From Phycisphaerales bacterium (GTDB lineage: Bacteria > Planctomycetota > Phycisphaerae > Phycisphaerales > UBA1924): a stretch of 64,000 nucleotides of DNA. This document shows, in pieces, positions 16,210 to 44,393 of the stretch (within the stretch, counting starts at the first letter, position 1; each line of letters starts with the position of its first letter). The notes under the pieces were generated by a model. It saw only the letters and a list, made by a program, of their open reading frames with translations. It made no database searches and was not told the DNA's origin. The stretch is taken from NCBI GenBank assembly GCA_016742075.1, contig JACVCL010000001.1, forward strand, positions 1 through 64,000, written 5' to 3'. The translations under genes and the position numbers were made by a program.

Positions 16210-16213
16210 CCCC

Positions 16214-16229: not shown

Positions 16230-16265
16230 TTGGCTCTTCACCCGGGGCGGCGAAAGCCAGTCCGG

Positions 16266-17648: not shown

Positions 17649-17660
17649 GGTGAAAACCTA
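17649..17660 (-). promoter_or_regulatory. -10-like TAGGTT, leaderless start of AI-2E gene
   Basis: TAGGTT (17660 to 17655, minus strand) ends 6 nt before the ATG at 17648. There is no Shine-Dalgarno site. Confidence 0.45.
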
Positions 17661-17745
17661 CCAAACCCGCCGATCTCGGGCCCGATCGGAGGGGCAGCCA
17701 TGCCGCGGCGGCTGTGCTTCGGATTGAGCGTGGTGGCGCCGCCGA

Positions 17746-25474: not shown

Positions 25475-28321
25475 TCAGGGCCCTTGGCAGCCGAAGTTCA
25501 CCAGAAGGATGGTCAGGTCGTTGGCCCCGACGCTGCCGTTGCGATCGAGGTCGGCCGCGGCGTCCCAGGCCGGCGAGGGCGGCGGACCGGCGGTCGAGCC
25601 GAAGGCCACCAGCAGGCGTGTGAGGTCATTGGCCCCCACGCTGCAGTTGCCGTCGACATCCCCCGGGCACGGGCACGCGGTGCAGGCCTCGGTGGCGAGG
25701 CTCAGGCGGTAGGGCGAACAGGGCATGCCGCTGAGCGGGTTGGATGCAGACACGGCCTGCGGCCGGAGCATGAAGTAGTAGGTTCCCGGCGGCAGGCAGC
25801 CCTGAAGCGTGACGGGCGAACAGGGCGTGCCGAGCACCACCTGCCCCAGCGGCGAGGCGCAGTTGAGCGTGGCGCCGCTGAACTGCCAGAACTCAAAGGG
25901 GATGAGGGCGGTCGTCGTGAGCGTGACCTTCCGAGGCTGGGTGAGCGTGAGCCGGTACCAGTCGGAGTCTTGCCGGTATGCGCCGGGGAAGCTCACCGGA
26001 TCGAACACGTACCAGCCGAAGGTGCCGCAGCGGGCCTCACCCGCCGGGTTGAGTGTCTCGGAGTCGGTCGTCGGATCACCGCTGTCGCCGAAGCAGCCGT
26101 CGTTGCCGGCGAACATGCCCGGCGAGCAGGCCGCTTCTCTGGCTTCAGGGGTCTCACCGCCGGCGCACGGGTTCGGGCAGCAGGCGCCCGCAGCGCAGGT
26201 GGTGTTGTTGCCGCGGTAGATGCCGCCCTGGCTCTGGCAGCTGGCCTGATCCTGCACGTTGCAGGTGCCGTTGGGGAGACAGCAGGCGCCGACGACGGGC
26301 GGCGGGCCCACGAAGAACTCGGCCAGGTACTTCGCCCCGCACTTGAGCTGCACGATCCGGTTGCTGCCCAGCGTGACGTTGGGCTGGACCATGAAGTAGT
26401 ACGTCTGGCCCGCCTCCACCACCCGGGTGAGCGAGGTGGGGGTGCAGGACGGCGCGACCGTGAAGAGGTTCCCGGCGTCGGGCGTCGACAGCGCCAGGCA
26501 GTCCGTGAATCCCCAGAGCTCGCCCCGGAAACTCGGCGTCAGCCGGAATGTCACCTGCTGGCGCGTGACCGCCGTATAGGCGTAGAAGTCGGCCTCGGAG
26601 ACGTACTGCCCCAGCGCGTTGAGATAGATGCCCACCGATCCGCACCACTTCGGCGTGGCCGCCGAGATGAACGAGAACAAGGGCACGCTCTCGAAGCACC
26701 CCCCGTTCACGACGTTGTTGTTGAAGTCCGAGCACACGCCGTCGGGCACGCCGACGAGCCCGGGCACGTTGCACGGCGCGCAGCAGACCCCCGCGGCGCA
26801 GACGCTCCCCTCGCCGCGGAACACGCCCCCGAGCGACGCGCACTGCGGCGCCACGACGGTGGTGCACGTGCCGTTGTCGAGGCAGCAGGCGCCGGTGGGG
26901 CACGTGCCGCAGGTGATGCTGGCGGTGTAGTCGGCGCACGACACGCCCACGAACGAGGGCTGGATGTACACGATGTAGCTGCCCGGCGGCAGACACGCCC
27001 GCACCGTCAGCGGCGTGCAGGCCGGGCCGTCGGCCTCGGCGACGATGCGCTGCTGCGTGCAGTCCTGCGGGCCGCTGAGCGATCGGATGCTGACGTACAC
27101 CGGGAACTCGGCGTTGACCGTCACCGTGTAGTAGCGCTGGGTGTTCGTGGAGAAGCGGTACGCGTCGCCGTCCTTGACCGCCGAGGCATCGTTGAGCGCC
27201 CCCTGGGTGCGCGACGTGCCCTTGATGATCACGCCGCAGCCCTCGTTGGCGATCGGCTCCGAAGCCAGCCCGCCGGGGCCGCAGCCGCCGTTGGTGTTCA
27301 CCAGCTGCCCGTTCGAGCACGCCTCGGCCTCGGTGTACGTCGTGCCCGGGAGCGGGCCGATCGCGCAGCACTGGACCGTCTGGCACGTCGTCCCGTCGCC
27401 CTGGTAGATGCCGCCCGTGGCCTGGCACTGCGAGGCGCACAGCGTCGAGGTGCAGGTGCCGTTGGGCAAGCAGCACGCCCCGGTCGGCTGCTGCCCGTTC
27501 ACCCACAGCTGGTACGCCCCGCCACACGGGTACGGGCCGCGATAGGCAGGGCTCGACTGCGGCCGGGAAGCCACGATGATCCAGTACTCGCCGGGCTGGA
27601 AGACCGCCCGCTGGAGGTTGGCCGGGAAGGTCCACAGCCCCGAACATCCGTCCAGATCGGCGAAGCCGGCGCTGGTGCCCGCATTCACCACGAACAGCTG
27701 GCCGCTGCAGGAAGGCTGGTTGTTCGGCCCCGTCACGATGGCGATCGTGGCGTCCTGCTGCGTCTGGAAGAAGATCTTGAGGCTAGTCGTGCACGATGTC
27801 ACCACCAGCCGGTAGTAGTCGAGATCGCGGTACAGCAGCGTCTGCTGGAGAACAGGGTCGTAGAAGCGGTACTCGCCCGTCGAGCCGCAGATCTTCGCGC
27901 CGGGCAGAAGACTCTGCAGTCGCGGCGGGTTGTACAGGCAGCCGTCGTTGTTGCCGTAGAAGTTGAACGCAGGGTCGGCGACCAGGTTGTCGAAACACGC
28001 GCCCTCGTTCTCAGAAGACGCGTCGGCCTCGCACGGGCTGGCGCACGAGGCACGGCCAGGGTCACCCCTCACCCCCACACCCGGACCAAACCCGCTGACC
28101 GCCGACAGCTGAGACCGGTCAATCGGCTCGCCGAGTGAGGCTGGCACGACTTCCGCCGCGGGCGCACGCCCCATCGATTCGGCGAGCGCCTCGGCCACTC
28201 CGGGCGGCAGCTGCTCGGGCCGCACACGCTGCAGCCCCGGCAGCGTCTGGGCGCCGGCTGAGATCACCCACCCGACCAGCAGCCACACCGAGACCGCCCA
28301 GACGAGCCAGATCGTGCGCAA
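25475..28321 (-). CDS. Exported Cys-rich repeat protein with GC-type dockerin
   Basis: 948 residues from a TTG start (GGAGG 8 nt upstream); the upstream ATG at 28474 would bury the signal peptide and overlap the next gene. Signal peptide LRTIWLVWAVSVWLLVGW...SAGA. The body alternates four beta-sandwich, PPC-like domains of about 130 residues with three Cys-rich linkers of the form GACCLxNGTC...CxxxGGxxxG...CxxxxCC. The tail holds two EF-hand-like dockerin loops, DVDGNCSVGANDL and DLDRNGSVGANDL, and ends in FGCQGP. No enzyme motif is visible; a structural, adhesive or substrate-binding role at the surface is likely (inference). It is the last gene of a seven-gene minus-strand block of dockerin proteins. 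Confidence 0.8.
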   Translation of the reverse strand: MRTIWLVWAVSVWLLVGWVISAGAQTLPGLQRVRPEQLPPGVAEALAESMGRAPAAEVVPASLGEPIDRSQLSAVSGFGPGVGVRGDPGRASCASPCEADASSENEGACFDNLVADPAFNFYGNNDGCLYNPPRLQSLLPGAKICGSTGEYRFYDPVLQQTLLYRDLDYYRLVVTSCTTSLKIFFQTQQDATIAIVTGPNNQPSCSGQLFVVNAGTSAGFADLDGCSGLWTFPANLQRAVFQPGEYWIIVASRPQSSPAYRGPYPCGGAYQLWVNGQQPTGACCLPNGTCTSTLCASQCQATGGIYQGDGTTCQTVQCCAIGPLPGTTYTEAEACSNGQLVNTNGGCGPGGLASEPIANEGCGVIIKGTSRTQGALNDASAVKDGDAYRFSTNTQRYYTVTVNAEFPVYVSIRSLSGPQDCTQQRIVAEADGPACTPLTVRACLPPGSYIVYIQPSFVGVSCADYTASITCGTCPTGACCLDNGTCTTVVAPQCASLGGVFRGEGSVCAAGVCCAPCNVPGLVGVPDGVCSDFNNNVVNGGCFESVPLFSFISAATPKWCGSVGIYLNALGQYVSEADFYAYTAVTRQQVTFRLTPSFRGELWGFTDCLALSTPDAGNLFTVAPSCTPTSLTRVVEAGQTYYFMVQPNVTLGSNRIVQLKCGAKYLAEFFVGPPPVVGACCLPNGTCNVQDQASCQSQGGIYRGNNTTCAAGACCPNPCAGGETPEAREAACSPGMFAGNDGCFGDSGDPTTDSETLNPAGEARCGTFGWYVFDPVSFPGAYRQDSDWYRLTLTQPRKVTLTTTALIPFEFWQFSGATLNCASPLGQVVLGTPCSPVTLQGCLPPGTYYFMLRPQAVSASNPLSGMPCSPYRLSLATEACTACPCPGDVDGNCSVGANDLTRLLVAFGSTAGPPPSPAWDAAADLDRNGSVGANDLTILLVNFGCQGP

Positions 28322-28458
28322 GAACAAACCTCCGCCCCCGGTCCACTCCCCGATCGCAACAGTATTCGGCCGGACCGGCGGGGGTGATCCGTTGAGTTGC
28401 GGGTGAACCGGACACATGGGGCACTGACCCCCGCGGGCGCCGAGTCGCGGGCTATCGG

Positions 28459-30900
28459 TCAGGGCAACCCGCACCCCCAGTTGGCGAGCACGATGCTGAG
28501 ATCGTTGGCCCCGATGCAGGGGTTGCCGTCAAGGTTTGCCCCGGGGATGTAGTTCGGATCACCCGGGCAAAGCCCAAACGACGCGAGCACGAGCGAGAGA
28601 TCGTTAGCACCGACGGCCCCGTTGCCATCGGCATCGCCGGGGCAGGGCTGAGGCAGGACCGTGAAGCCGAAGGCGGCCGCCCCGCCCGGCTGACCATCCC
28701 CCGAGGGCAGCGACCCCGGGGCGTTTGGGTCGGCGACCTCGCCGTCGAGGGCGATCCCGGCTGCCACCGAGGTCACGGCCGTGGACACGGTCACTGAGTA
28801 GCCGCCGGGGGCGAGCGGTCCGGAGAAGGTGAGCGTGGCGGAGAAGGTACCGGGCGTGTAGGCGAGCGTGAACGGGACAGCGGTGCCGTTCCGGGTGACG
28901 GTCACGTTGGCCGCGGAAATGTTGACGTTCTCGCTGAACGTGACGGTGAGCGCCGAGGGGGCCGCCGCGGCCGCGAACTGCGAGCCCGGGGCGGGCGACG
29001 TCTGAATGAGCTTGGGCGGCCCATTGACGTAGGCGACGTTGGTCTTGCCGTACTCAAGGATCCACCGGTTCTCGTCGAGCGTCACGCCCGTGGCCGGACT
29101 GCTGATGGGCACGACGTAGTGCTCGAGCCTCGCGTCGTTGAGGATGCTCGTGAGGGTCGAGCCGGAGGCGAAATTCACCCGGAGGTCCATCGGGAAGCGG
29201 AATCGCCCGCCGGAGCCGAAGGCTGTGCTCTGCGTCTGCTGCACGTGCAGCCGCAGGTAGTTCTGGCCGTTGACGGCGAAGGTGTTCCAGCCGAACTGGT
29301 ACACCGGCGCACCGGTGCCGAACACGCACTGGTCGAAGAACCACTGGTAGTTCTGGCCAGTCGTGCTGTTGACGACGCCGATGAAGTCGTTGGTGGTGCC
29401 CGACGAGCCCCCGAACGACGACCGCCAGTTGGCGAGGATCTGCCAGAACACGGCATCGCCGACGAGCTTGCGGAGCTGGTGGTAGGTCCAGGCACCCTTG
29501 CGGTACGAGAGGTCGTTGTTGAAGATCGTGTTGATGCTGCTGGTGTCGTAGACGTACACCGAGCCGTTGGCCCCGGTCTGCGACGGGCGCCGCGAGTTCA
29601 TCGCGCTGAAGAGCGCGGGCAGACCGGTCGAGCCGCTGCGGCGCTCCTGCCACACCGCCTCGCCGTAGGTAGCGCCGCCCTCGTTCAGCCAGATGTCACT
29701 CCAGGTGCGGCAGGTGACCCAGTCGCCCCACCACTGGTGCGCCAGCTCGTGGGCCGTTACCGACTCGCTGAACACACCCTGGCCGGTCATGGTCTGGTGC
29801 TCCATGCCGCCGGAGAAGCCGAACTGGTACATGCCGTACCGCTCGTTGATGAAGGGATACAGCCCGTAGACGCCGCGGAACGCCTCGAGCATCTGGACAC
29901 TGATCTCCCATGTGTTGCGGTTGGAGAACGTGTCCGATCCGGGGTAGTAGTAGAAATCCACGGGCATCGAGGCGGTGCCGCCGCCGCTCAGCGGGTAGGT
30001 GTAGGTCTGGCGGTAGAAGTTGTAGTTGGTGATGCCGAAGGCGACGAGGTAGGTGGGGATCGCGTACTGGCTGGCGTAGCGGAATCGCCGCCGACCGCCC
30101 GACAGATCGTCGGTCCCCTGCAGCAGGCCGTTGGCCACGGCCGTCAGCGTGTTGGGCACGGTGAGCGCAAACGTGAGCAGGAACTTGTCGGAGGTGTCGC
30201 CGGGCTGACCGACGTCGCCGTCCTTGCACGGCCACCAGGTGTAGGCGTAATACGGCTGCGACAGCGTCCACGCCAGCGGCTGGCCGCCCTGCGTTCCCAG
30301 GTTGATCGATCCGAGACCGACGTTCACGGGGATGCCCGTGTACGTGATCCGGAGCGTGAACTGCTCGCCGGCGTTGTAGGCCCGGTCGAGCGTCACGCGC
30401 CGGGTGGTCGTGCTCACGTTGGTGATCGTCGCGGGGGTCGAGCCGTTCATCGTCGCCGTCACGCCCGTGTACTGGCTGCGCAGACGGAACGTGAACTCGG
30501 TCAGACCGTTCACCAGTGAACGGATCGTGAAAGTGTTCGACCCCGTGAGCGTGCCGTTGGCCGGCGTGGTGAGGTTCGGGATGAACTCGATATCGAGGTT
30601 GCACGCCAGCACGTCGGTGTCGCCGTACGCCTCACGCATCGCGAGCTCGCCCCGCGGATCGACCAGCCACTGCAGGTTCTCCTGCGTGAAGCGGTTTCGG
30701 GCCGCCCACGCCTTGCCGCAGCCCACGCACTCGTGGCAGATCGGATCGGCGCCCGTGTCTCCCGGCTGGGCCGACTGCATGTACTTCGCGAAAGGCGACG
30801 GGGCCGCCGCCACCGCATCGGCCTGAGCCCATGCCACGCCCGCCACCGCACCGACGCAGCACCCGAGCACCGCCACGCGAGACATCGCCATCAGCATCAT
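28459..30900 (-). CDS. Exported M1-family aminopeptidase with GC-type dockerin
   Basis: About 813 residues. A signal peptide ([14 protein letters not shown]...AWA) follows tandem ATGs at 30900/30897, behind GGGAG. M1 catalytic signature: [10 protein letters not shown] (zinc His residues near 384 and 388) with the third ligand Glu in [11 protein letters not shown] (near 407), and the exopeptidase motif GGMEHQ (364-369) in place of the usual GAMEN. An unusual CHECVGC cluster lies near residue 55. After the catalytic core comes an Ig-like domain ([21 protein letters not shown]...), then two dockerin loops, [13 protein letters not shown] and [13 protein letters not shown], ending in NWGCGLP. It should cleave amino acids from the N-termini of peptides outside the cell. 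Confidence 0.9.
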
Positions 30901-31063
30901 GCTTCTCCCGGCCGAGCCGTAAACGTCATGACCGCACCAATTCCTCAGGCAGAGTACACCCGGCCGCCGGCCCGTGAAGCCGGCATCGCCCATGTTGGGA
31001 GACTCATGCAGACCAAAACCGGCCGGCCTCTTCGGCAGCCGCCACGCCCCCCTGAACAGTCGG

Positions 31064-33214
31064 TTATGGGAGCGTGATCGAGCAGCCGGTGGCGGGCGGC
31101 CCCGCGCTGTAGTACGTGACGAGCAGGATCGTCAGCGAACCCGCCCCGACCGTCTGCCCGTCGAGGCTGGCCGGGCCTCCCGCCCCGGTGCCCCAGAGCG
31201 TGAGGATCTGCGTCAGGTCATTGCCGCCGACGGTACCGTTGTTGTCGACGTCCGCTTGGCACTTGATGCCGAACAGCCGGCTCGTCGGCGTCGCCGTGGT
31301 GGTGCCGGCAGAGTTCACCGCCTGCACCCGCCAGCGGTACTTCGCGGCCCAGTTCAGGTCCTGCGACGGCGTGAAGGAAGTGTTTGTCAACCCCGCCGCG
31401 GTCAGGAGCGGGCTGGCGAAGGCGGTGTCTGCGGGCGTGGTGATCTGGAGCGTGTACGTCGGCGTGGGCGAGCCCGAGGAGGCCGTCCAAGAGAAGTCCG
31501 GCCGCGTCGACGTGGGCACGGGGAGCTTGGCGATCAGGGCGTTGTCGGCCGGGGCGATGAGGCTGAACGCCGCCGGCGCTGCCCCGGCCGTCGTGAACGA
31601 GAACGGTGCGTTACCCGCCAGTCGGTTCCCGGTCCCGTTCACGGCGGTCACACGCCAGAAATACTGCGTGCCCGCGGCCAGCGACGGCGTGACCAGCCAG
31701 CTCGTGCCCGTCAGGCCCGGCTGGGTCCGCACCACGGCCGCGAACGCCGCGTCGGTCGCCACTTCCACCGTGTAGGTCGCGGCGCCGGCCGACGCCCCCC
31801 ACTGCAGGTTCGGAGCCGCATCGACCCCCGTCGCCCCGGACGCCGGCGACGTGAGCGAGAACGCCGCCGGCGCCGCCGAGCCGACCGTGAAGCTGAACAC
31901 GGCCGAGCCGGTGGTCAGCGCTGCCGGCACCGGCGAGCACGGACCGGTGGGCGACACATACGCCGGGGTTACCGCGGTCACCTGCCAGAAGTAGGTGCCG
32001 TTGCCCAGGGCCGTCGCCGGCGTGTAGCTCGTGCCCACCAGCCCGTTGACCGTGGTGACGTTCTGCGTGAACCCCGAGTCAGAGGCCATGCGAAGGTTGT
32101 AGAACTGGGCACCCGGGGCAGCATTCCACGTGAGCGTGGGAGTTGTGACCACGCCCGAATCGCCGTTGGCGGGGGTGATCAGCGCGAAGGCACCCGGCGG
32201 CGCCGGCACCACGTCGGGCGTGACGTTCGCGAAAATCGCCGTGGCCATCGCCCACTCCGAAAAGCACGTCTGCCCGGAGACCGTGATCGCAAACCGCTGG
32301 GACAGCGACGTGAACGCGCCCGTCGGGTTGGCGCTCGGGTTGCCCAGCAGATTGCCCGGATCCCACCAGTACCGGCGCGATTGAGCGCCCAGCCTCGCCG
32401 TGGAGGCCACGGGGTTCTGGTTGTTCCCACACCCCCAGATCGCCGGGCTCGCGGCGGTCGAGTACGTAAACCCGGCCGTCTGCGTGACCGGGTCCACCAC
32501 GAACGTCTTGTAGTACTCGATCTTGTACCCGCCGTCCCCGTCGGCCGGGATCGGCAGGGTCACGCTGCCGTTGTCGAGAGAGGTCACGTCGAGCAGGTAC
32601 GGCGAGGTGTTGGCCGCCAGGTTGATCGGATCGCCCTGCGTCTTGAAGTTGAGCACGAAGCCCGTGCCGGACACCGGCCCGGAGACCCCCGGCGGGTTCT
32701 GCAGGAAGTTGTCGTAGAAGGTCATGCCCAGGAAGAACGTCTCCGACGTGTCCTGTCGCATCAGGTGCCGGATCGACGAGATCACGTCGCCCTCGGCCCC
32801 TGGCCGGACCTTGAAGTCCTCGGCCCACGACACCATCCGCGTGCCGCTCGGAAAGGCGAAGCGCTGGCTGTCGGTGAGGCCCGTGCACGCCAGGCCCCCC
32901 ACCAGGGAGATGCCCGCCCCGGCCATCGGGCTCACGCAGTTCAGGCCCAGCGCGTCGAACACCACCTCGTTGCTGCCGCGGAGGCCGCCGAGCTCGAAGT
33001 TCCGATAGTCGATCCAGTCGGTGAGCATCACCTTCCGGCCGTCGACTTCTCGGAAAAACGCGATCTTCGTCGGCTTGACGACGATGGCCTGAGCCGCGTC
33101 CACCGTGTCATGCACCTCGATGACCTGCTCGGCCTCGGGCGAGCCCTGGGCCCACGCCGCGGCGAATGGCAGACCGAGAGCGGCAGCAGCGGCGACAAAC
33201 GAGCGGATCGACAT
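31064..33214 (-). CDS. Exported Fn3-like repeat protein with GC-type dockerin (paralogue 1)
   Basis: 716 residues; ATG at 33214 with CGGAG 7 nt upstream starts a clear signal peptide ([21 protein letters not shown]). An N-terminal domain of about 330 residues ([60 protein letters not shown]) is shared with the next two genes and matches no family I know. Three fibronectin-III-like modules follow, each with YFWRV- or YRWRV-type strands. The dockerin has one good loop, [13 protein letters not shown], and a degenerate second one; the protein ends in GCSITLP. It is probably a surface or matrix protein; no catalytic motif is seen. Confidence 0.78.
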
Positions 33215-33377
33215 GGCTGAACTCCGAAGGTCGGGGCTGACTCCCCTGCCGAAAGCGGGGATGCCGAGAGGCGCCGAGCGCGCAAGTGCCTGCGCGCCCT
33301 CACATTGCAATCTACGCCGGATATCGGGACAGGCCAGCAGGAATCCCCGGACTCAGCCCGATTTCTCCCATATCAGA

Positions 33378-33407
33378 ACAAAGCCCCGGCCGGAAACGGC
33401 CGGGGCT
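33378..33407 (-). terminator. Terminator of Fn3-like paralogue 2
   Basis: A 10-bp perfect stem (33383-33392 with 33397-33406) with a GAAA loop on the plus strand, extended by an A-T pair; on the minus strand it is followed by TTTGTTC. It lies 34 bp past the stop of the gene ending at 33441. Confidence 0.75.
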
Positions 33408-33440
33408 CGCGGAAAGATCATCGCTAGCGATGATGCAGGT

Positions 33441-35576
33441 TCACCGGCTAGAGGACGGGGGCACGGCACACCCGAAGCCGGTCAGCAGCAAGGTGAGGTC
33501 GTTGCCGCCGATCGTTCCGTTGCCGTCGAGGTCGCACGCGGGGTTCCAGTTCGGATCGGCCGACGACGCGCCGAACGCCAGGAGAAGCAGCGTCAGATCG
33601 TTGGCGCCCACGCTGCCGTTGGAATCGATGTCGGCCACACACTTGATGCGGAACTGGCCGAACGTCGGCGTCGCCTGCACGGTGCCGCCCGGGTTGGTGG
33701 CCGAGGCGCGCCAGAAGTACCGGGCGCCGCCGGCCAGGGCCGGGCTCACGGTCAGCGTGGTGCCGGTGACGTTCCCCGAGTCGAACACGATCGACGAGAA
33801 GCCCGGATCGCTCGCGACCTGGATCTTGTAGTTCACGGCGCCCGTGGCGGTGGTCCACGTCAGGTCCACATTCCCCGACGTGTTCGGCGGCACCTTGGCA
33901 ACGATCTCGTCGTTGATCGGAGAGACCAGCTTGAACTCGCCCGGCGGGGTGTTGGCCCCGGTCGTGAAGCGGTACGGGCCGTTCAAGGAGTTCACCGTGC
34001 CGCCGACCGCGACCGCCGCGACATCCCAGAAGTACTGCGTGTTCGGGCTCAGCGGCGAAGGGACGTCGAAGAAGACATCCGTGATGCCGGACACGTTGAT
34101 GATCAGGGTGTTGGGGTCGGAAGCCGCCCACAGCCGGACGTTGAAGTTCTGAGGGGCACGGCCGGAACCGGACCGCAAGAGATCGCAGAACGGATCCCAC
34201 CGAAGCCGCGGCTGGAGGGGCACGCCCGAGGCATCGAACGGCGGCGAGAGCAGGCACGGCGCAGAGGGCGGGAAGGCGACACAGAACAGGCCGGCATCAG
34301 ACGACGCCGTGCGGTCACCCGAAAGCGGGGCATTCGACGGCGCGTTCGCCACCGCCTGCACCGACCACCTGTAGCACACGCCCGGGCAGAGGTTGGTGAG
34401 CAGCTGCATCCGCTCGCCCTCGACGTAGCCGAGCACCGTGCTGCCCGAAGAGCACGCCTCGCCGCGATTGGGCACGTCGGGCACGATGACGATGTTGTAG
34501 AAGGTCGTGTTCGAGGACTGCGTCCACTCGAACACCGGGCTCGGGCCCGTCAGGGTGCCGCCGACGGGCGAAACCAGCGAAAACGCGCCGGGGCCGGGGG
34601 GCGGCGGGTCGGCCACGTTGGCGAAGAACGACATCGCCCACGACCAGCCCGCGCGGAAGCAGGGCTGAGCGTTATCGGCCACCACGCAGCCGGCGCTCTC
34701 GTTGGCGGGGCTGTAGTTCGCGCCGACGTTGTCGGCCGGTGCACGGTCCTGCCGGAAACGGTCGGTCTGCCCGCCGAACTGGGCGAACGGGCGGTTGGAG
34801 TCGCCCCCCGCGGGCCGGCCCAGGTTGCCTGTGCCCCAGGCACCCGGGCTGGCCACCGGCGAGTAGGCGAAGTTCGTCGGGCCATTCAGGCTCGAGAGGT
34901 ACTCGACCTCGAACGAACCGTTGCCGTCGGCCGGAAGCGGCAGGCCCGCGCCGCCGAAGAGCAGGTTCAGGTCGCGCTGCTGGAAGTTGTAGAACCCGGC
35001 GCCCAGGTTCGAGAACCGCATCGCGACGCCCTGGCCCGAGATGGCGGGCGTGCCCGTGATGTCCTGGCACACCGACAGCGGCCCGGGGGTGTCGTAGAAG
35101 GTCACGAGCACCACGAACGACGGCTCGGGCTGGGCGATGCGGAAGTAGCCGCGGATCCGGGTGAGCAGCCGGGTCGAGCCGGCGGTGATCGGCTTGAGCT
35201 TGAAGTCGCGCAGCGTCGCCACCACGCGGCTGGTCGAGGGGAACGCGTACCGCTGCCCCGACGCGAGCCCGCAGGCGGCGCCGCCCACGGGCAGGCCGGT
35301 CTGCGGGTTGGCCGGGTCGAGCTGGATGCCGTCGAACACGCACTCGTCGGCCGCGCGGTCGACGCCTAGCCGGCCGGCGGGCACCCACGGGCCCATCTCG
35401 ACGATCCGGCCGTTGACCTTGCGCACGAGCGCGACCTCGACGGGCGCCACGGACTGCCACATCTCGGCCGGAACGGCCTCGAGCGGCCCCGACACCGTGC
35501 TCAGGGGCATCGGGTCGGCGGTGGCGCCGCCGCAGACGAGGGCCAGAGCGGCGGCGAGCTTCAAGTGATGACGCAT
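33441..35576 (-). CDS. Exported Fn3-like repeat protein with GC-type dockerin (paralogue 2)
   Basis: 711 residues. GGGAG lies 6 nt before the ATG at 35576 and directly abuts the ATG at 35582, so I chose the former. Signal peptide RHHLKLAAALALVCGGATA. The N-terminal domain aligns with that of paralogue 1: KVNGRIVEMGPWVPAG, FPSTSRVVATLRDFKLKP, FVVLVTFYDTPG, PLPADGNGSFEVEYL. Three Fn3-like modules follow, the last (about 560-650) ending FRIKC as in the neighbours. The two dockerin loops, DIDSNGSVGANDL and DLDGNGTIGGNDL, are both intact, and the end is GFGCAVPPSSSR. No catalytic motif seen. Confidence 0.78.
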   Translation of the reverse strand: MRHHLKLAAALALVCGGATADPMPLSTVSGPLEAVPAEMWQSVAPVEVALVRKVNGRIVEMGPWVPAGRLGVDRAADECVFDGIQLDPANPQTGLPVGGAACGLASGQRYAFPSTSRVVATLRDFKLKPITAGSTRLLTRIRGYFRIAQPEPSFVVLVTFYDTPGPLSVCQDITGTPAISGQGVAMRFSNLGAGFYNFQQRDLNLLFGGAGLPLPADGNGSFEVEYLSSLNGPTNFAYSPVASPGAWGTGNLGRPAGGDSNRPFAQFGGQTDRFRQDRAPADNVGANYSPANESAGCVVADNAQPCFRAGWSWAMSFFANVADPPPPGPGAFSLVSPVGGTLTGPSPVFEWTQSSNTTFYNIVIVPDVPNRGEACSSGSTVLGYVEGERMQLLTNLCPGVCYRWSVQAVANAPSNAPLSGDRTASSDAGLFCVAFPPSAPCLLSPPFDASGVPLQPRLRWDPFCDLLRSGSGRAPQNFNVRLWAASDPNTLIINVSGITDVFFDVPSPLSPNTQYFWDVAAVAVGGTVNSLNGPYRFTTGANTPPGEFKLVSPINDEIVAKVPPNTSGNVDLTWTTATGAVNYKIQVASDPGFSSIVFDSGNVTGTTLTVSPALAGGARYFWRASATNPGGTVQATPTFGQFRIKCVADIDSNGSVGANDLTLLLLAFGASSADPNWNPACDLDGNGTIGGNDLTLLLTGFGCAVPPSSSR

Positions 35577-35743
35577 GACCATCTCCCGTGCGAAATCCGC
35601 GGTGCAAACCGCCCCCGGCGTGTCCGGACCGTCTCTTTCAACGTACCCCAAACCTGATCGGGGGGCGAGCCAGTTCGGGGAAAAATCGGCATTCTCAGGG
35701 GTCCGGATCACAGTTCCCGGGCGTTTTCCGGCGCCCGCAGGGT

Positions 35744-35780
35744 CCAAAAAAGAAAAGCCCGGGCTCCTGCGAGCCCGGGC
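35744..35780 (-). terminator. Terminator of Fn3-like paralogue 3
   Basis: A 10-bp perfect stem (35757-35766 with 35771-35780), loop CTGC; on the minus strand it is followed by TTTTCTTTTTTGG. It lies 45 bp past the stop of the gene ending at 35826. Confidence 0.88.
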
Positions 35781-35825
35781 TTAGGGGTGATCAGCGACGA
35801 TCAGGCCTGCCGTACGGACGGGCCG

Positions 35826-38800
35826 TTACGGGAGGGTGATCGAGCAGTTGCCGAAGCTGCTGAGCAGGATCGACAGGTCGTTGCCGGCGACGCCGCCCAC
35901 GCCGTCGAGGTCGGCCGGGCCACCGAGGCCACCACCGAACGCGCCGAGCAGGAGCGAGAGGTCGTTCGCGGCGACAGCGCCGTTGTTGTCGACGTCGGCC
36001 TGGCACTTGATGCCGAAGTTGACCGAGGCCGGGGTGGAGTTGGTGGTGCCAGCGGTGTTCGTGGCGCGGACGCGGGCCCAGTACTTGGTGGCGTAGTTGA
36101 GGGCCGGGGTCACCGTCCAGCTGTTGCCGGTCAGGCCGGTGGCGCTGGCGACGATGCCGGTGAAGCCCGCGTTGGTCGACACGTCAACGTTGTAGGTGGG
36201 CGTCGGGGTGCCGGTAGACGACGTCCAGGTGATGGTCGGCGTGCGGCTGGTCGGGACCGGCAGCAGCGCGATCAGCTGGTTGGCCGTCGGCGAGGTGAGG
36301 TTGAAGGCGCTCGGCGGGACGGTGGCCGGGACGGTGGTGAAGGAGAACGGAGCGTTGCCGGCGGTGGTGGTGCCCGTGCCGTTAACGGCCCGGACGCGCC
36401 AGATGTAGGAGGTGCCGTTGGCCAGCGGGCTGCTGAGGGTGAAGGTGGTGCCGGCGATGCCGGCCTGGTTCACGACCGGGCTGGTGAAGCCGGTGTCGGC
36501 CGGGTTGGTGACCTGCAGGGTGTAGGAGGTCGCGTTCGAGGAGGCGGTCCAGGCGAAGGACGCCAGCACCGCGACGCCCGTGGCCGAGTTGGCCGGGGTC
36601 GTCAGAGTGAACGCGCCGGGGGCAGGGACGCCGGTGCCGGTGGTGAACTGGTAGGCGCTGTTGGTGGCGGTGGCGCCGGCAGCGTCGGTCAGACGCCAGT
36701 AGTGCAGGGTGTTCGGCGCCAGCGGGGTGCCGCTGTAGGTGGCCGTGGTGGCCGCCGTCGGGATGTTGATCGAGCCGACGATGGTGGTGAAGTTGACGTC
36801 GGTGGCGATGTCAAGCGTGTAGGGGGCGATGGTGGTGTTCGTCGCCGGGAAGGCCCACGTGAAGGTGGGGTTGAGGCCGACGCCGGTCGAGTTGTAGGCC
36901 GGGGTCAGCAGAGCCCACTGGAAGGGGCCGGTCGCGATGACCGAGGCGAAGAAGGCGCCGGGCACCGGGTTCGACGAGCCGCCGGTGGCGAGCACGCCGG
37001 GGTTGAAACTCTGGTTGTTGCGGGCGTACCAGCGCCAGTTCCACTGGCCGGCCGGGAAGCCGGTGATCGTGATGCCGGCGGGGGTGATGCCGGTGAAGGT
37101 GCTCACGCCGGTGGCGAAGGTGGAGTCCTGAGAGACGTCGAGGCGATAGTCGATCGCGCCGAACGAGGGCTGGGCGCCGCCGGTGCCCTGAACCAGCTCG
37201 AAGAGGACGTTCTGGCCGGTGGCCGAGCCGCTGGCCGGGGCGGCCATGGCGAAGGCGCCGGGAGCCGGGGCCGCGGAGGTGGTGAAGGTGCGCGGGCCGT
37301 TCCAGGCCAGGGTGCTGCCGCTGCCGTTGGTCGCGCGGACGCGCCACCAATAGGTGCCCTCGGGCACCGCGGCGAGCACGTAGCTCTGGGTCAGGCCGGT
37401 GTTGGAGGACTGCACGATCGAGCCGGCGACGAACCCGGGGTCGTTGGCGATCTCGATGGTGTAGCTGGCAGCGGTGGCGGAGCTCGTCCAGGTGAACGAG
37501 GTGCCGCCGGCGGCCGAGACGCCCGTGGTGCCAGCGGCCGGGGTCGAGAGCTGGAACTGGCCGGGGTTGTTGCTCAGGGTGAAGGAGATCGTCCCGGAGG
37601 CGGCGTTGACCGGCGGAACCGGGTGCACGCAGCCGGGGCCCTGGGTCGAGAAGCGCGACGGGCCGGTGGCCAGAACGCGCGAGAAGTAGGTGCCGCCCGG
37701 GGCGAGCTGCGGCGTGAAGTCGTTGTAGGTGACGCCGATGATCGCGGTGCCCGCGAACGAGCGGTTGTTGGTGGTGAAGGTGTTGTTGTCGGCAACCTGA
37801 TGCACCAGCAGCTGGTCACCGGCGTTGCCGGACCAGGTGAAGGCGATCGGGAAGTTCACGTTGGTCGCACCGTTGGACGGCGCGGTGATCGTCGGGGCGG
37901 TGATCGCCGGGATCGAGACGTCGGGGACGATGTCCACGATGGCGGTGACGGCGGGGACCAGGCCGTTGGCGAAGCAGGCCTGCACGGGCGTGACCTGAAC
38001 CGGGCCGTTGGCCACGGTGTTGGGGCCGAGGATCCCGCCGGAGGCGGCGCTGGGCGGCTCGGTGTCGATGTAGAGCTCATCGCCGCCGATCTCGCCGAAG
38101 CCGACGTTCCGCAGGCTGGGGGTCTGGAGCTGGCCGGTGCCCCAGAAGGCGGGGCCGCCGCCGTTGCCGTAGTAGGGGTTGCCGCTCAGGGTGCCGTTGA
38201 AGCTCGACCACATCTCGACCGCCACGCTGCAGCGGATGGCCGGGGTGGTCGGGGCGGGGTTCACCTGCAGGATCGGGCGCTGGAGCGAGCCCGTGCCGAA
38301 GCTGAACGTACCGATGTACGTGGCCAGCTGGCCGACGTTCGTCCCCGGCAGCGTGCCGGCGTTGAAGAGGAACACGTTGAAGCCGCCCGAGCTGGCCAGG
38401 CGGGCCGTGGCGTTCTCGATCCAGTCGTTGAAGAACCCGACGGCGAAGAAGAGGGTCGTGCCCTGCACGCCCTGATAGAGCATCGGGAAGCGCTGGATGG
38501 CGTTGGTGCCGTTGGCCAGCGTGCCGGGGCGGAAGTTGAAGTCCATCGCCCAGTTCACCAGGCGCTGCGAGGAGGAGAAGATCGTGTAGCGGACGCCGTC
38601 GACGCCGGTGCCGGTGAAGCACGCGCTGCCGCCGCGGTAGTTGAAGGCGGTGACCGAGAGCACCGTGGTGGTGCCGATCACGGCGCCGAAGGTCAGCGGG
38701 GTGCAGGCGTCGAGCTCCAGGGAGTCGAAGCAGGCCTCCTGCGTGGCGCGCGAGCCGAACTCGCCGCGCGGGTCGTACGGCATCCACGGGGTGATCTCGA

Positions 38801-39047
38801 CGAGATTGCCCTGCGGGTCAACCTTCGCCATCGCGAACTCGATGGGCTCGTGGACGAACTGCGGGAGCTCGGAGGTGGGGCGAGCGACGAACTGGCCCAT
38901 CTCCGGCACCTGCTGCCCGAGCTTCATCTTCAGATTCGTGCTGGTCTGCGTCCCGGTCTTCACCGGGCTGGCGGCCTGCGGGGTGGCGGCCGTCGCCATA
39001 CCGGCGACCGTCAGCACCGCAGCGCAACTCAGAAAGCTGCTCTTCAC
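35826..39047 (-). CDS. Exported Fn3-like repeat protein with GC-type dockerin (paralogue 3)
   Basis: 1,073 residues; the GTG start at 39047 has AAGGAG 7 nt upstream. Signal peptide KSSFLSCAAVLTVAGMATA. The N-terminal domain matches paralogues 1 and 2 (KVDPQGNLVEITPWMPYD, SSSQRLVNWAMDFNFRPG, LFFAVGFFNDW). Six Fn3-like modules follow, against three in each of its neighbours. The final module plus dockerin (LLPVPTSRTPTITWTSS...[14 protein letters not shown]) is nearly the same as in paralogue 1. The dockerin loops are DVDNNGAVAANDL and a weak second loop, and the end is FGNCSITLP. The long leader (39048-39422) contains a strong hairpin. A surface or matrix role is likely. Confidence 0.8.
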   Translation of the reverse strand: MKSSFLSCAAVLTVAGMATAATPQAASPVKTGTQTSTNLKMKLGQQVPEMGQFVARPTSELPQFVHEPIEFAMAKVDPQGNLVEITPWMPYDPRGEFGSRATQEACFDSLELDACTPLTFGAVIGTTTVLSVTAFNYRGGSACFTGTGVDGVRYTIFSSSQRLVNWAMDFNFRPGTLANGTNAIQRFPMLYQGVQGTTLFFAVGFFNDWIENATARLASSGGFNVFLFNAGTLPGTNVGQLATYIGTFSFGTGSLQRPILQVNPAPTTPAIRCSVAVEMWSSFNGTLSGNPYYGNGGGPAFWGTGQLQTPSLRNVGFGEIGGDELYIDTEPPSAASGGILGPNTVANGPVQVTPVQACFANGLVPAVTAIVDIVPDVSIPAITAPTITAPSNGATNVNFPIAFTWSGNAGDQLLVHQVADNNTFTTNNRSFAGTAIIGVTYNDFTPQLAPGGTYFSRVLATGPSRFSTQGPGCVHPVPPVNAASGTISFTLSNNPGQFQLSTPAAGTTGVSAAGGTSFTWTSSATAASYTIEIANDPGFVAGSIVQSSNTGLTQSYVLAAVPEGTYWWRVRATNGSGSTLAWNGPRTFTTSAAPAPGAFAMAAPASGSATGQNVLFELVQGTGGAQPSFGAIDYRLDVSQDSTFATGVSTFTGITPAGITITGFPAGQWNWRWYARNNQSFNPGVLATGGSSNPVPGAFFASVIATGPFQWALLTPAYNSTGVGLNPTFTWAFPATNTTIAPYTLDIATDVNFTTIVGSINIPTAATTATYSGTPLAPNTLHYWRLTDAAGATATNSAYQFTTGTGVPAPGAFTLTTPANSATGVAVLASFAWTASSNATSYTLQVTNPADTGFTSPVVNQAGIAGTTFTLSSPLANGTSYIWRVRAVNGTGTTTAGNAPFSFTTVPATVPPSAFNLTSPTANQLIALLPVPTSRTPTITWTSSTGTPTPTYNVDVSTNAGFTGIVASATGLTGNSWTVTPALNYATKYWARVRATNTAGTTNSTPASVNFGIKCQADVDNNGAVAANDLSLLLGAFGGGLGGPADLDGVGGVAGNDLSILLSSFGNCSITLP

Positions 39048-39422
39048 TGTCTAGCTCCTTTCCTCTCGGACCGACCCGGGGAAACTCTCGGCGGGACTCC
39101 TGCGGACCCGGCCCTTCCGGAGCCCGCGTGCCTCGACACCGGCGGTTTGGCCTACAGCCAACGCCGGCGGCGCAGCCACCTCCATCGGTGAAATCTGCGC
39201 GTCCCCGAACACTTCCATTCAGATTACTGGCAAAATCGCCGCGTGCCAGAAGGAATGCCGGGAAATGCGCAGAACGGGCATCCCCCTAACACGGCAACGC
39301 CCGAATTTTGGCGGGTCCGCAGGTTGCCCATCTTGGGGCGCGGTGACACCCCGCATAGACATGCCCGATAATGGGTATGCCGAGAGACGCGCCCCGCCCG
39401 CGAGCCCGCCACTACCCCGACG
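39048..39422. other. Intergenic leader of Fn3-like paralogue 3
   Basis: 375 bp between the start of paralogue 3 and the end of the next dockerin gene. The part next to the start holds the Shine-Dalgarno site (AAGGAG) and a hairpin at 39139-39167. Positions 39200-39330 are relatively A+T-rich and probably hold the promoter; TAATCT on the minus strand near 39220 is a weak -10 candidate with CTGGCA 17 nt upstream. No gene seen. Confidence 0.5.
39139..39167 (-). promoter_or_regulatory. Structured 5' leader hairpin
   Basis: On the minus-strand mRNA, an 11-bp stem: CCGGCG/CGCCGG extended by TTGGC/GCCAA pairing (39139-39144 with 39162-39167; 39147-39151 with 39157-39161), a 2-nt bulge and a 5-nt loop. 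It lies about 90 nt before the GTG at 39047, too far for a simple Shine-Dalgarno occluder. No riboswitch class recognised. Confidence 0.45.
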
Positions 39423-41411
39423 TCAGCGGGTGCACCCGACGTTGGCGAGCAGGATGGTGAAATCGGCGGCGCCCACGGAGCCGTCGCTGTCGAGGTCGGC
39501 CGCGGCGAGCCAGTTCGGGCCGCCGCGCACCGATCCGAAGGCACCCATGAGAAGGGCGATGTCGTTGGCGCCCACGGCGCCGTTGCCGTCGATATCGCCG
39601 GGGCAGGGAACGCCAGCCTGCTGCTCGATCAACTGCACGAGGTCGAAGGTGCTCCGGAGCTGCTGGGCCGAAACGAAGTAGTTCAGGTGCCGGAGGCGGA
39701 GCTGAACGGTTCCGTCCGGGGCGATGTGGGCCGCGGCCCGGGTGTCGAGGATTCTGGCGGCCGCGGCCGAGTCGGTCGTGGTCCGCGCGGTGCCCACGGA
39801 GAAGTCCGGGAGCGGATCCCAGACCACCGGCCCGCCGGTGCCGCCGGAGTAGTTCCTGATCCACGCCGAGCCGGACGTGCCCAGTTCGCTGCTCCAGCTC
39901 TCGATGAGGATCAGAAACTGCTGGGGGGGCGCCGGCGTGCGGAACGGCGTGGAGAACGTGACGGTGATCTCGCCCGTGAACCCGGGCAGCGGGGTGGTGA
40001 CCTGGACGGGGTCGTTATTGGCCATGGCCAGCCGGGCGGGGTTGTTGCCGCCGGTGGTGGTCTCGGTGCCGAGGCTGACCTGATAGGACGAGACGCTCGC
40101 GCCCCAGACCTGGCGCGCGGCCGAAGCGACCGCCGACCATCCCGCGTCGGTCGCCCACTTTGCGTCGTTCCACACGTAGAAGTCGGCGACCCCTTCGGCG
40201 CGGAACATCGCCATAAGCCGGCGGAAGTCGGTCTCGGTGACGGTGTAGAGCGACGTGGGCCCGAAGCCGATGTCGTACCGCTGGCCCGGAAGAGGAATCC
40301 AGGGCGACAGCTCGCCCTGCTTGCCGCCGCCGAACGAGTCGACGGCCGACTCGATGTTGCCCCGGACGACCCGGAGCGTGGCGTCGAACCACGACTCTCC
40401 CGAGACCGCGAACGAAAAGTGCACCGGGTAGATCACGGGCGATTGGCGGTCGCCCAGGCCCTTCCAGGAGTACCACTGCCAGATGGGGCCCCACCACCAC
40501 AGATCGCGGTACACCCGCGCCGGGCTGCCGCCGCCGTCGGTGCGCATGCTGACCAGAAAGTCGCTCGACTGGCACGTCGGCCACGCCGCGCGCACCCGCT
40601 GGTACACCGCCGCGTCCATCGCCCCGTCGACCGCCTGAGCGCAGATCCCCATGTACCAGCGCGACCACGGCCGGTTGCCCACGTCCGACATGTCGTACCC
40701 GACCACGTAGTACGGCCGGCCCGCGGCCGTGTAGAGCTGCTCGAGCGTCTGCGGGCGGCCCTGCGAGTCGAAGCAGCCGGGAACGGTCTCGGTGAACCAG
40801 CGCGGGTCCTGCCGGATCTTGCTGAACAGCGTCAACTCGCTGTAGTCGCAGCACGTCACGGCCTGGAGTTCGGTGTCGAAGATGAAACGGGTGGGGTCGG
40901 GAAGGTTGGGGTTCTGCGACTGCCGGTAGCGGTAGCGCGCGATGAACTCATCCATCCACGCCCGCGTCTGCGCGATGCCGTTGGACATCCACGGCGTGCG
41001 GAACCAGTCGTAGACGGTGCGATCGGCCAGGCTGTCCGCCGGGTGGTACGCCAGCGCGAAGTTCCCTAGGTAGAACGACCCAGGCACGCCCCCGTTCCCG
41101 AAGTTCTGGAGCTGGATCCCCACGCGCCCGGCCGGCAGGCGGCGTATCAGGATCTGATTGCAGATGTCATCAGCGACCTCGGTGCCGGTCCGAAACCGGC
41201 CCGGGTACACGTCGGTCCGCACCATTGCCACCAACGAAGGATCCGAAGCAAGCGGACCAGAGGGGGTGTTCCACGTCCAGAACCGCGGACCGGACTGCCC
41301 CGCCACCGGGAGGCTCGCCAAGATCAGCGCAAAAACCGCGGGAATCACCCGGGCCGCCCAGGCACCGCCGGGGCAACCCGCGCCGGGGATACCCGGCTCG
41401 CCGACCTCCAT
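39423..41411 (-). CDS. Exported protein of unknown fold with GC-type dockerin
   Basis: 662 residues; ATG at 41411 with GAGGAG 7 nt upstream. The N-terminus holds a signal sequence (ARVIPAVFALILASLPVAGQS). Residues about 45-430 are Trp/Tyr-rich and match no family I recognise. Acidic clusters such as RFIFDTELQAV, VVGYDMSDVGNRPW and FYVWNDAKW suggest a TIM-barrel-like glycoside-hydrolase fold, but I can name no catalytic pair with confidence. A beta-rich segment (about 440-590) follows, then dockerin loops [13 protein letters not shown] and DLDSDGSVGAADF, ending in NVGCTR. It is the sixth of the seven dockerin genes in coordinate order and may be an extracellular carbohydrate-active enzyme (inference). 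Confidence 0.7.
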   Translation of the reverse strand: MEVGEPGIPGAGCPGGAWAARVIPAVFALILASLPVAGQSGPRFWTWNTPSGPLASDPSLVAMVRTDVYPGRFRTGTEVADDICNQILIRRLPAGRVGIQLQNFGNGGVPGSFYLGNFALAYHPADSLADRTVYDWFRTPWMSNGIAQTRAWMDEFIARYRYRQSQNPNLPDPTRFIFDTELQAVTCCDYSELTLFSKIRQDPRWFTETVPGCFDSQGRPQTLEQLYTAAGRPYYVVGYDMSDVGNRPWSRWYMGICAQAVDGAMDAAVYQRVRAAWPTCQSSDFLVSMRTDGGGSPARVYRDLWWWGPIWQWYSWKGLGDRQSPVIYPVHFSFAVSGESWFDATLRVVRGNIESAVDSFGGGKQGELSPWIPLPGQRYDIGFGPTSLYTVTETDFRRLMAMFRAEGVADFYVWNDAKWATDAGWSAVASAARQVWGASVSSYQVSLGTETTTGGNNPARLAMANNDPVQVTTPLPGFTGEITVTFSTPFRTPAPPQQFLILIESWSSELGTSGSAWIRNYSGGTGGPVVWDPLPDFSVGTARTTTDSAAAARILDTRAAAHIAPDGTVQLRLRHLNYFVSAQQLRSTFDLVQLIEQQAGVPCPGDIDGNGAVGANDIALLMGAFGSVRGGPNWLAAADLDSDGSVGAADFTILLANVGCTR

Positions 41412-41525
41412 GGCTCGTCTCCTCAGCCGCCCGGCTCGGCCGAGGGGAGACTAGCCCGGAAAATTCCTTACGCAAGCGACACTGCGCGATTTCTGCGCTT
41501 ATCGGTCCGGCCGATCCACCCTGTT

Positions 41526-44393
41526 TCAGGAGCTGCAGCCATAATTGGCGAGCAGCGTCGAGAGATCGTTGGCACCGATGCACGGGTTGCTGTCGAGATT
41601 CGCGGCGGGGAGGTAATTCGGATTCCCCGGGCAACTCCCGAAGCTCGACAGCAGGCTCGACAGGTCGTTGGCGCCGACCGAGCCGTTCCCGTCGATATCG
41701 CCCGGGCAAGGCGTGAAGGTGGTGAACGACCGCGACGCCGGGGTGCTCAGCGTGGTTCCGCCGGGCCCCGACGCGATGACCCGCCAGAAGTAGGTCGTCG
41801 AAACCGAGAGCGTGCCCGGCGGGATCGTGAAGACGGTGCTCGTGTCGCCCGCGAGGCTGGAGAAGAGCGTGAGCGGCGGGGCGAAGCCCGCGTCGGTATC
41901 GACCTCCACCGTGTAGCCGGCAGCCCCCGACGAGAGCAGCCACTGAAGCGTCGGCGTGAGCGTGGTAACGGTCACCCCGTCGGCCGGAGCGAGCAGCCCG
42001 AAGGCCGGTGGCGGCGGCGGCGGTGCCAGGGTGGTGAAGCTTGCTGAGGCGGGCGAGCTGGACGTGGTGCCGCCGGGGCCGGTGGCCACGACGCGCCAGA
42101 AGTACGGCGTGTTCTGCGCCAAGGTGCCCGCCGGCACGGCGTACGACGTCACGCCGGCGCTCAGCGCCTGCTGGATGATCAGCGGCGGAGCGAAGCCGGC
42201 GTCGGAGTCGAGCTCGAGCGTGTAGCCCGAGGCGCCCGACGAAGACCCCCACGACAGGGTCGGCGTGAGCGGCACGCCGGCCGCGCCGTTCGCCGGCGAG
42301 AGCAGCGAGAACGCGCCCGGCGGCTGCACGCCGGTGATCGAGAAGTTGCTGTTGGACACGTCGAAGAAGAAGTTGCCAACCGCCTCGACGCGCACGCGGG
42401 CGGTGGTGGTCGCCGGACCGGGGATCACCACCGACGCGCTGCCGCTGTTGGGCACACCCGACGCAAGGAGCGTCGGGAACGTGTTGCCGCCGTCGGTAGA
42501 CAGGCGGATGTTGACCTGCGAGGTGCTCACGGGCGCGGCCGTGGTGTTGGCGACGTTCCACGTGACGGTGAACGGCTGACCGGAAGTCAGACTCTCACCG
42601 CCGTTGGGGGCCGTGACGGCGAAGGGGCCAGCGGTGTCAGTGACGTTAATGGTGACATCGCTCCAGATCACGCCGCCGCGGCCGTCGCGGACGATGCCGC
42701 GGAAGCGCAGAGCGTTGGAGCCGGTGCGGGTGGTCGTCGGCACGCCCTCGCCGCGGACGTAGTTGGTGTTGGTCGCGAAACCGTTGAGCACCGTGGCCAG
42801 TCGCGGGAACGTGCGGGTGGGGCTGGTGACAGGGAGGAACGGGCGGAAGAACGTCGGGAAACTGGTGCCGGGGAAGGTGCCGGTGTAGTCGAGCATCGGG
42901 CCGCCGCTGGTGTTCAGGGCGATGGCGCTGCCGGTGTTCATCTGCTCCCAGCTATAGGTGAGGGCGTCGCCGTTGGCGTCGCTGCCCGAGGCGGTCAGTT
43001 CGAAGGGCGTGCGGACCGGGATGGTGCGGCCGGAGGGCGGCACGGTGATCGTCGGGACGGAATTGCCCGTGTTCAGCAGCTGGTCGCACGCTCCGGCGCC
43101 GGTGCCCGAGGCAATGTAGGGGCTCATCTGGTCGCCGATGTTGCCGGCGTGGAACATGGCGTCGGAGTTTGACTGCAGGTTGGTCGCCGCGGAGCAGATA
43201 CCGGCGTATCCCATGATCGAGCTGCCCGATCCGGGCTCCCACGCCACGTTGGCGCTGTCGCCGGGGCCGGTGCTGCAGTTGTTGAAGTTGTGCCGCCCGG
43301 CGAACTGGTGCCCGAGCTCGTGGGCCACGTAGTCGATGTCGAAGGGGTCGCCGGTGGGCTGGTTCCGCAGGCTCACGCCCTGGGCCTTGTTCGCGGTGCA
43401 CACATTGCCGATGGCGCCCGCCACGCCGCCGCTGCCGGTGCCGAAAGCGTGCCCGACGTCGTAGTTCGCTGACCCGATCTGGCCGTTGAGGGCCGTCACG
43501 TTCTGGTTCAGCATCGTGTTGGAGTTGCCGTTGGTGTACGGATCGGTAGCGCTGTTCGTGTAGATGGTCAGGTTGTTGTTGCTGACCAGCAGCAGCCGGG
43601 TAGCCAGGTCGCGCTCGTAGACCTGCGTCACGCGGTTCACGGTCGTGGTGACCGCCGAGAGCCCGAGGGCCACCGTCGGCGCGCTAGGGGCGCTCACGGC
43701 GGTGGTGTACTCACCGGTGGCACCGATCGCGATCCGGAAGGTCCGGAGCTGGGTGCCGAAGTTCCGAGCGGCGTCGCGGGGCACGTCGTTGATCCAATCC
43801 TGCGGGCCGGCGCCCGGCGTCGAGCAGGTCCAGAAGTCGTCGACTCCGCGGCGGAGATCCGCTCGGCGGTAGGCGGTGTACAGCGTCTGATCCCCGCGGC
43901 TGTAGCGGTCGATGTACCACGAGCCGTTCGCCGAGAGGATCTGGGCTCCGAAGCCCAGGTACGTCCACTCCATGCGCACGGTGGCCCACGGGTCGTCCAC
44001 ACCGACGCCGAAGTAGGTCTTGATCTCCGGGAACTTCTCGGCCAGACCCGGCTCCATGACGGGCGAGAGCACCACCCGGAACCGCGACCATGAGCCGTCG
44101 GGCGTCGGCAGCGTGATCTCGACAGGGGCGTTGGCCGCGGCGGCGGTGAACTCGAGCGGGGCGACGGCCAGCGTGTTCTTGAGAGCGTCGACGTCGAGCG
44201 CGACCGCCCGGAAGTTCGTCGGGCGGATCCAGCCGTCGAGCGCGGCCTTGTCGGCGGGGATGGCGTCGAGACCGGTCCAGAGCCCGCAGGGGGACCGGCC
44301 GATTCCGCCGACCGGGCCGGCCCCTGCCGGAAGATGCAGCACAAAGGCCGCAACGATCGCCCAAGTAGAGCATCCACGCGCGAGCATCGACAT
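41526..44393 (-). CDS. Exported reprolysin-like metalloprotease with GC-type dockerin
   Basis: 955 residues with a signal peptide (MLARGCSTWAIVAAFVLHLPAGAG). The propeptide-like region is about 40-200. The metzincin active site is HELGHQFAGRH (358-368: three zinc His and the catalytic Glu) with the Met-turn SSIMGYAGIC (391-400), which places it in the M12B/reprolysin-like group. After the catalytic domain come a proprotein-convertase-P-like or Ig-like stretch (about 440-650) and two tandem Fn3-like modules that are near-copies of each other (TLELDSDAGFAPPL and TVEVDTDAGFAPPL). Dockerin loops DIDGNGSVGANDL and [13 protein letters not shown] end the protein with NYGCSS. It is likely a secreted protease. 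GGAG lies 9 nt before the ATG. Confidence 0.88.
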   Translation of the reverse strand: MSMLARGCSTWAIVAAFVLHLPAGAGPVGGIGRSPCGLWTGLDAIPADKAALDGWIRPTNFRAVALDVDALKNTLAVAPLEFTAAAANAPVEITLPTPDGSWSRFRVVLSPVMEPGLAEKFPEIKTYFGVGVDDPWATVRMEWTYLGFGAQILSANGSWYIDRYSRGDQTLYTAYRRADLRRGVDDFWTCSTPGAGPQDWINDVPRDAARNFGTQLRTFRIAIGATGEYTTAVSAPSAPTVALGLSAVTTTVNRVTQVYERDLATRLLLVSNNNLTIYTNSATDPYTNGNSNTMLNQNVTALNGQIGSANYDVGHAFGTGSGGVAGAIGNVCTANKAQGVSLRNQPTGDPFDIDYVAHELGHQFAGRHNFNNCSTGPGDSANVAWEPGSGSSIMGYAGICSAATNLQSNSDAMFHAGNIGDQMSPYIASGTGAGACDQLLNTGNSVPTITVPPSGRTIPVRTPFELTASGSDANGDALTYSWEQMNTGSAIALNTSGGPMLDYTGTFPGTSFPTFFRPFLPVTSPTRTFPRLATVLNGFATNTNYVRGEGVPTTTRTGSNALRFRGIVRDGRGGVIWSDVTINVTDTAGPFAVTAPNGGESLTSGQPFTVTWNVANTTAAPVSTSQVNIRLSTDGGNTFPTLLASGVPNSGSASVVIPGPATTTARVRVEAVGNFFFDVSNSNFSITGVQPPGAFSLLSPANGAAGVPLTPTLSWGSSSGASGYTLELDSDAGFAPPLIIQQALSAGVTSYAVPAGTLAQNTPYFWRVVATGPGGTTSSSPASASFTTLAPPPPPPAFGLLAPADGVTVTTLTPTLQWLLSSGAAGYTVEVDTDAGFAPPLTLFSSLAGDTSTVFTIPPGTLSVSTTYFWRVIASGPGGTTLSTPASRSFTTFTPCPGDIDGNGSVGANDLSSLLSSFGSCPGNPNYLPAANLDSNPCIGANDLSTLLANYGCSS

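Follow-up and report, generated by a model that had tools for sequence, protein, structure and literature searches.

Dockerins outside cellulosomes have, to our knowledge, long been known, and in most lineages an established partner is missing. C-terminal tags of the MYXO-CTERM type are genome-wide, carry a conserved cysteine and are found on many exported proteins. The NCBIfam family dockerin_GC (NF041540, 'GC-type dockerin') describes a two-repeat, cysteine-bounded, dockerin-like domain at the C-terminus of many exported proteins. For freshwater planctomycetes a cohesin/dockerin peptidase complex, the planctosome, was proposed in 2019, in which the docked enzymes are M12B reprolysin and M14 peptidases (PMC6461901).

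The window analysed in this study is the opening 64 kb of contig C196; the draft genome to which it belongs has 3.07 Mb and is 88% complete. An earlier note, made from the DNA sequence alone, had described seven consecutive minus-strand genes for exported proteins with dockerin-like tails, and the ORF coordinates, the start heuristic and an alignment of the seven tails all agree with that description. The genes lie in a row from 25475 to 44393, separated by gaps of -16 to 375 bp, and all seven products carry a tail at the C-terminus and begin like a signal peptide, as judged by eye and by a crude heuristic. Their cargo varies while an end of about 62 residues is common to all. The features are as follows.

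25475-28474, minus strand: exported protein carrying Cys-rich repeats of the GACCLPNGTC type; tail 25478-25675; probable internal start codon (ORF calls, Pfam, tail profile)
28459-30993, minus strand: M1 aminopeptidase-like exported protein with an Ig-like domain; tail 28462-28650 (Pfam, tail profile, orthologues in family genomes)
28462-28659, minus strand: folded tail, predicted dockerin fold with two loop-helix repeats and four Cys (AlphaFold, PDB structure comparison)
31064-33310, minus strand: Fn3-like paralogue 1; tail 31097-31267, second loop degenerate (Pfam, seven-tail alignment, tail profile)
33441-35747, minus strand: Fn3-like paralogue 2; tail 33459-33647 (Pfam, seven-tail alignment, tail profile; weak NF041540 match)
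35755-35782, minus strand: terminator-like hairpin with a T-run behind it, in the gap from paralogue 3 (35826-39047) to paralogue 2 and just upstream of the latter (pattern match only)
35826-39047, minus strand: Fn3-like paralogue 3; tail 35838-36011 (Pfam, seven-tail alignment, tail profile)
39423-41411, minus strand: exported protein with an unknown Trp-rich domain; tail 39426-39611 (Pfam, tail profile; distant relatives in 5 other family genomes)
41526-44393, minus strand: reprolysin-like (M12B) metalloprotease with Ig/Fn3 domains; tail 41529-41714 (Pfam, tail profile, orthologues)

The block is flanked by genes for an MlaE permease and a radical SAM/DUF3463 protein, and the long plus-strand ORFs lying over it are probably antisense artefacts of a GC-rich genome. 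Since the GTG start at 28474 runs into the next gene's stop codon, translation of the 25475 gene probably begins further inside the frame. The varied cargo described in the earlier note was confirmed by Pfam for the M1 peptidase, the reprolysin and the fn3/Ig-like domains. Apart from its tail, the 39423 protein matched nothing in Pfam or NCBIfam; named relatives were absent from the scanned genome contigs and from plasmids, five distant relatives (26-32% identity) were found in family genomes, and a single-sequence fold prediction of its cargo (pLDDT 34) was too low for use. Paired DxDxNGxVGxNDL-type loops had been claimed for every end: the shared tail is indeed present in all seven proteins, but in the 31064 tail loop 2 has degenerated to GQTVGAGSL and lacks the Asp at loop position 12.

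Structure prediction for one window tail together with 45 relatives (AlphaFold, pLDDT 94) gave two loop-helix repeats; in the predicted model these calcium-loop and helix units are arranged as in a dockerin (PF00404). Comparison of the model with the PDB returned 2y3n_B as top match (1.5 Å rmsd, TM 0.72/0.79); the twelve top matches were dockerins throughout, from cohesin complexes or scaffoldins, and the model lies nearest to cohesin-binding type II dockerins. The predicted fold, the paired calcium loops with F-helix and the C-terminal position are like those of cellulosomal type I and II dockerins (PF00404), whereas the lack of a cohesin by sequence search, the non-cellulolytic cargo, the flanking Cys pair and the dozens of near-uniform copies in one genome are not.

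Recognition by existing profiles was uneven. Pfam Dockerin_1 (PF00404) scored the 39423 protein above cut-off and the 25475 and 33441 proteins below it, with no match to the other four. This model alone would miss most of them; the tail common to all became visible when the seven were aligned. A profile built from that alignment recovered all seven and dozens more elsewhere in the genome. The 29-bit cut-off of NF041540 was not reached in this genome, the best match being 28 bits and the best window protein 13.5 bits; judged by that model, the dialect of the window tails is an outlying one. In sister genera the orthologous proteins have a corresponding tail. The tail belongs with the GC-type dockerins, though this genome's copies score under the curated cut-off. 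NF041540 was found in all 100 sampled genomes of the family, 97 of them over the cut-off, and it is nearly absent outside: of 149 genomes sampled across the phylum, only four exceeded the cut-off, three of those from the same family. Most of the named database records with tails like these are MAGs of Planctomycetota, several of which bear the label Phycisphaerales; the window probably comes from that order as well.

The genome-wide search for the same tail that the earlier note had suggested gave 74 matches with the seven-tail profile, spread over many contigs. Once duplicates, truncated or weak copies and the two internal matches had been taken out, 60 complete C-terminal tails were left, with a mean pairwise identity of 56%. 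The proteins that carry them include subtilases, matrixins, an M14 carboxypeptidase, a trypsin with a P-domain, GH15, GH57 with CBMs, a pectate lyase, an animal-type haem peroxidase, endonuclease I, Ig arrays and Fn3 proteins. A signal-peptide-like start was seen in 52 of 63 tail proteins versus 7 of 18 other window genes, by a crude heuristic under which 3 of 10 negatives look exported by eye and some frames are cut or have uncertain starts. Such cargo fits the extracellular degradative or surface roles that had been proposed, and the proteins may be located there. The idea that the block is an island or operon held together by its module was, in contrast, rejected, since the tail is a genome-wide tag and a strong terminator-like hairpin (35782-35755) splits the block and argues against one operon; such hairpins show no overall excess across the region. 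The block simply represents the longest series of tagged genes encountered, and the overall reading of the earlier note is partly supported.

A cysteine near the C-terminus was present in 59 of the 60 tails and one just before loop 1 in 53, the bounding pair that NF041540 describes; six tails have the terminal cysteine and none just upstream. All 57 orthologue tails examined have the near-terminal cysteine. At two further pairs of positions cysteines are jointly present or absent (9/9 vs 0/51 and 8/9 vs 0/51), for which Fisher values overstate the number of independent events because the Cys-bearing sequences are related. In relatives G053, G063 and G009 the linker of many tails holds a Cys pair, and these tails lack the terminal Cys. 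To judge from these sequence patterns, the cysteines may form disulfides in an exported domain, as a clasp on either side of a pseudo-symmetric fold; the six tails lacking the upstream partner mean that the clasp is not universal.

Comparison of orthologues revealed that the tails follow the genome and not the gene. M1 orthologues with C-termini were available from 30 genomes, including this one, and each has at its end a two-repeat, Cys-bounded tail that varies in sequence among genomes; the reprolysin orthologues show the same pattern. For the paired test the best-scoring loci were taken and genomes were required to hold both proteins. In the 17 genomes that did so, the M1 and reprolysin tails of one genome were 71% identical, whereas between genera the M1 tails were 31%, the reprolysin tails 28% and the M1 cargo 52% identical. 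The tail from the own genome ranked first in 15 of 17 cases, the other two being congeners that chose each other. In 100,000 random pairings the observed score was never reached. Between genera, the 60 residues preceding the M1 tail were 44% identical, against 32% for the tail itself, and congeneric pairs were intermediate, with tail identities of 47-84%. Sister genera therefore use the same kind of tag in different dialects. A per-position test of which dockerin positions change between genomes was discarded as evidence, as variation covers almost the entire stretch and the register assigned automatically was incorrect in several genomes.

One candidate cause of this uniformity was gene conversion or recent copying of DNA. 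Recent copying would give much higher codon identity than was found: at conserved residues the tails of this genome (five near-duplicates left out) used the same synonymous codon in 62% of cases versus 57% expected from cargo codon usage, and in three other genomes the figures were 48 vs 44, 49 vs 46 and 38 vs 40%. The tails taken from G053, G009 and G063 for this test were the ones that most resemble those of this genome. Synonymous codons are near random in all four genomes and recent copying is not supported, although the small excess in three of the four allows for a degree of old common descent or for copying on occasion. Near-random synonymous codons argue that selection on the protein sequence, and not recent copying, keeps the tails alike; given that the dialect differs between genomes, this selection would have to refer to something outside each protein, which is the main step of the argument. 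As far as we know, the dialects and the codon test have not been described before; among open-licence papers neither the term 'GC-type dockerin' nor a link between dockerins and concerted evolution was encountered, which is weak evidence.

The explanation we prefer, with a probability of about 0.6, is that the tail, clasped by cysteines, serves as a C-terminal tag for docking or sorting and is recognised by a common partner specific to each genome. Each tagged protein would be exported by its signal peptide, and the tail would fold into a dockerin with two calcium loops, presumably calcium-bound and usually stapled by a disulfide from the cysteine just before loop 1 to that near the extreme C-terminus. 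One trans-acting partner would bind all tails, and dozens of enzymes and adhesin-like proteins that are unrelated to one another would in this way stay together or on the cell surface. Tails of one genome would stay alike because all must fit the same partner, and as the binding face of that partner changes from genus to genus, all the tails would change with it, producing genome-specific dialects. Supporting this are the confidently predicted dockerin fold with its nearest solved relatives in cohesin complexes, the full-length tails on unrelated cargo in one genome, and the tracking of tail with genome, near-random codons, covarying cysteines and near-confinement of NF041540 to the family. 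Against it stand the search for a partner, which found none, the expectation that a hub read by dozens of tails might be frozen and not drifting, the small shared-codon excess, the exceptions to the clasp, and two tail matches that are not C-terminal. In a bolder form, each genus would have a private docking code for dozens to perhaps two hundred exported proteins per genome, its dialect turning over between genera and its reader either no recognisable cohesin or the tails themselves, so that enzymes are kept with their own kind; this version is tentative, and we rate it at somewhat less than even odds.

A classic cohesin-dockerin assembly, cellulosome-like or of the planctosome kind, would have a scaffoldin or adaptor with recognisable cohesins as the docking site of the tails. 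The predicted fold, nearest to type II dockerins, agrees with this, and tagged members of both peptidase types docked in the proposed complex, M12B reprolysin and M14, occur in this genome (PMC6461901). That proposal, however, needs cohesin proteins and an LTD anchor. A PF00963 search of the whole 88% complete genome gave no cohesin, as the earlier note had observed for the window, and the LTD search gave one match, below cut-off; a profile of relatives' cohesins, which had no positive control, also gave no match in this genome. Only 11 of 100 family genomes, several of them drafts, had PF00963 matches, in about equal proportion where the tail dialect is rich (3/30) or poor (8/70), and among relatives assembled into one or two contigs, some combine many tails with zero cohesin matches. 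Some relatives do have cohesin-bearing proteins (L023, L025 and L026), of which L023 and L025 also end in a dockerin-like stretch and resemble the adaptor of the planctosome proposal (PMC6461901). This explanation is weakened, not closed, in that a strongly diverged cohesin would escape the sequence searches used, and it now appears unlikely. The caution in the earlier note that a binding partner for such tails is not established was justified.

Alternatively, an enzyme could recognise the tail and act covalently on the near-terminal cysteine for anchoring or sorting, a role suggested by the NCBIfam name 'GC-type dockerin domain-anchored protein' and by that cysteine being more constant than its upstream partner. 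The likeness to MYXO-CTERM and other C-terminal sorting tags extends to genome-wide occurrence, terminal position, a conserved Cys and many exported carriers. Those tags differ from the present one, predicted to be a folded calcium-loop domain: most tails end 1-5 residues past the last Cys, which is followed by neither a transmembrane helix nor basic residues, and the short motif, helix and basic end of a sortase, exosortase or myxosortase signal were thus not seen. In addition, relatives with the linker Cys pair often lack any terminal Cys, and the extra pairs covary as disulfides would, all of which makes covalent anchoring improbable.

Docking of the tails on one another, each selected to match its own genome's set with no separate receptor, would explain the genome-wide uniformity, the absence of cohesins and the resemblance between the two halves of one tail (59% identical, versus 28% between genomes). 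Solved dockerins near this fold are cohesin-bound, however, and such self-docking seems rather improbable. A purely cis role, with calcium loops and disulfide forming a robust cap that would stabilise or protect each C-terminus, is very improbable, as it does not predict that unrelated proteins share a genome's dialect while orthologues differ.

To return to the docking tag with a common partner, the genus-specific, genome-wide uniformity of the tails is strong indirect evidence for a trans reader co-evolving with them. If so, the partner is expected to bind tails in its own dialect but not those of a sister genus, the dialects would provide a natural series of candidate orthogonal docking pairs, and the interaction would be a hub that drifts despite dozens of dependent proteins.

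Several minor observations were made. The two tail matches that are not C-terminal, with 439 and 499 residues after the tail, lie in two reading frames of L076 (contig C179), one of which has YD-repeat-like text upstream of the tail. Several Dockerin_1 matches each, partly outside the common dialect, occur in a 4,321-aa frame (L065, contig C168) and a 996-aa frame (L089, contig C144). The window ORFs at 14587-17664, 50756-52858 and 58493-59659 had zero Pfam matches at E 0.001. Cys-rich repeats of the GACC..(N/S)G.C type, as in 25475-28474, recur in L279 and L325 and in M1 and reprolysin orthologue frames of two relatives. The Fn3 paralogues of the window (31064-39047) are part of a larger set in the genome (L057, L059, L061, L073, L075 and L078) with a tail sub-dialect of its own, KCQ.DVDNNG...ANDLS...CSITLP, which has about eight members by tail.
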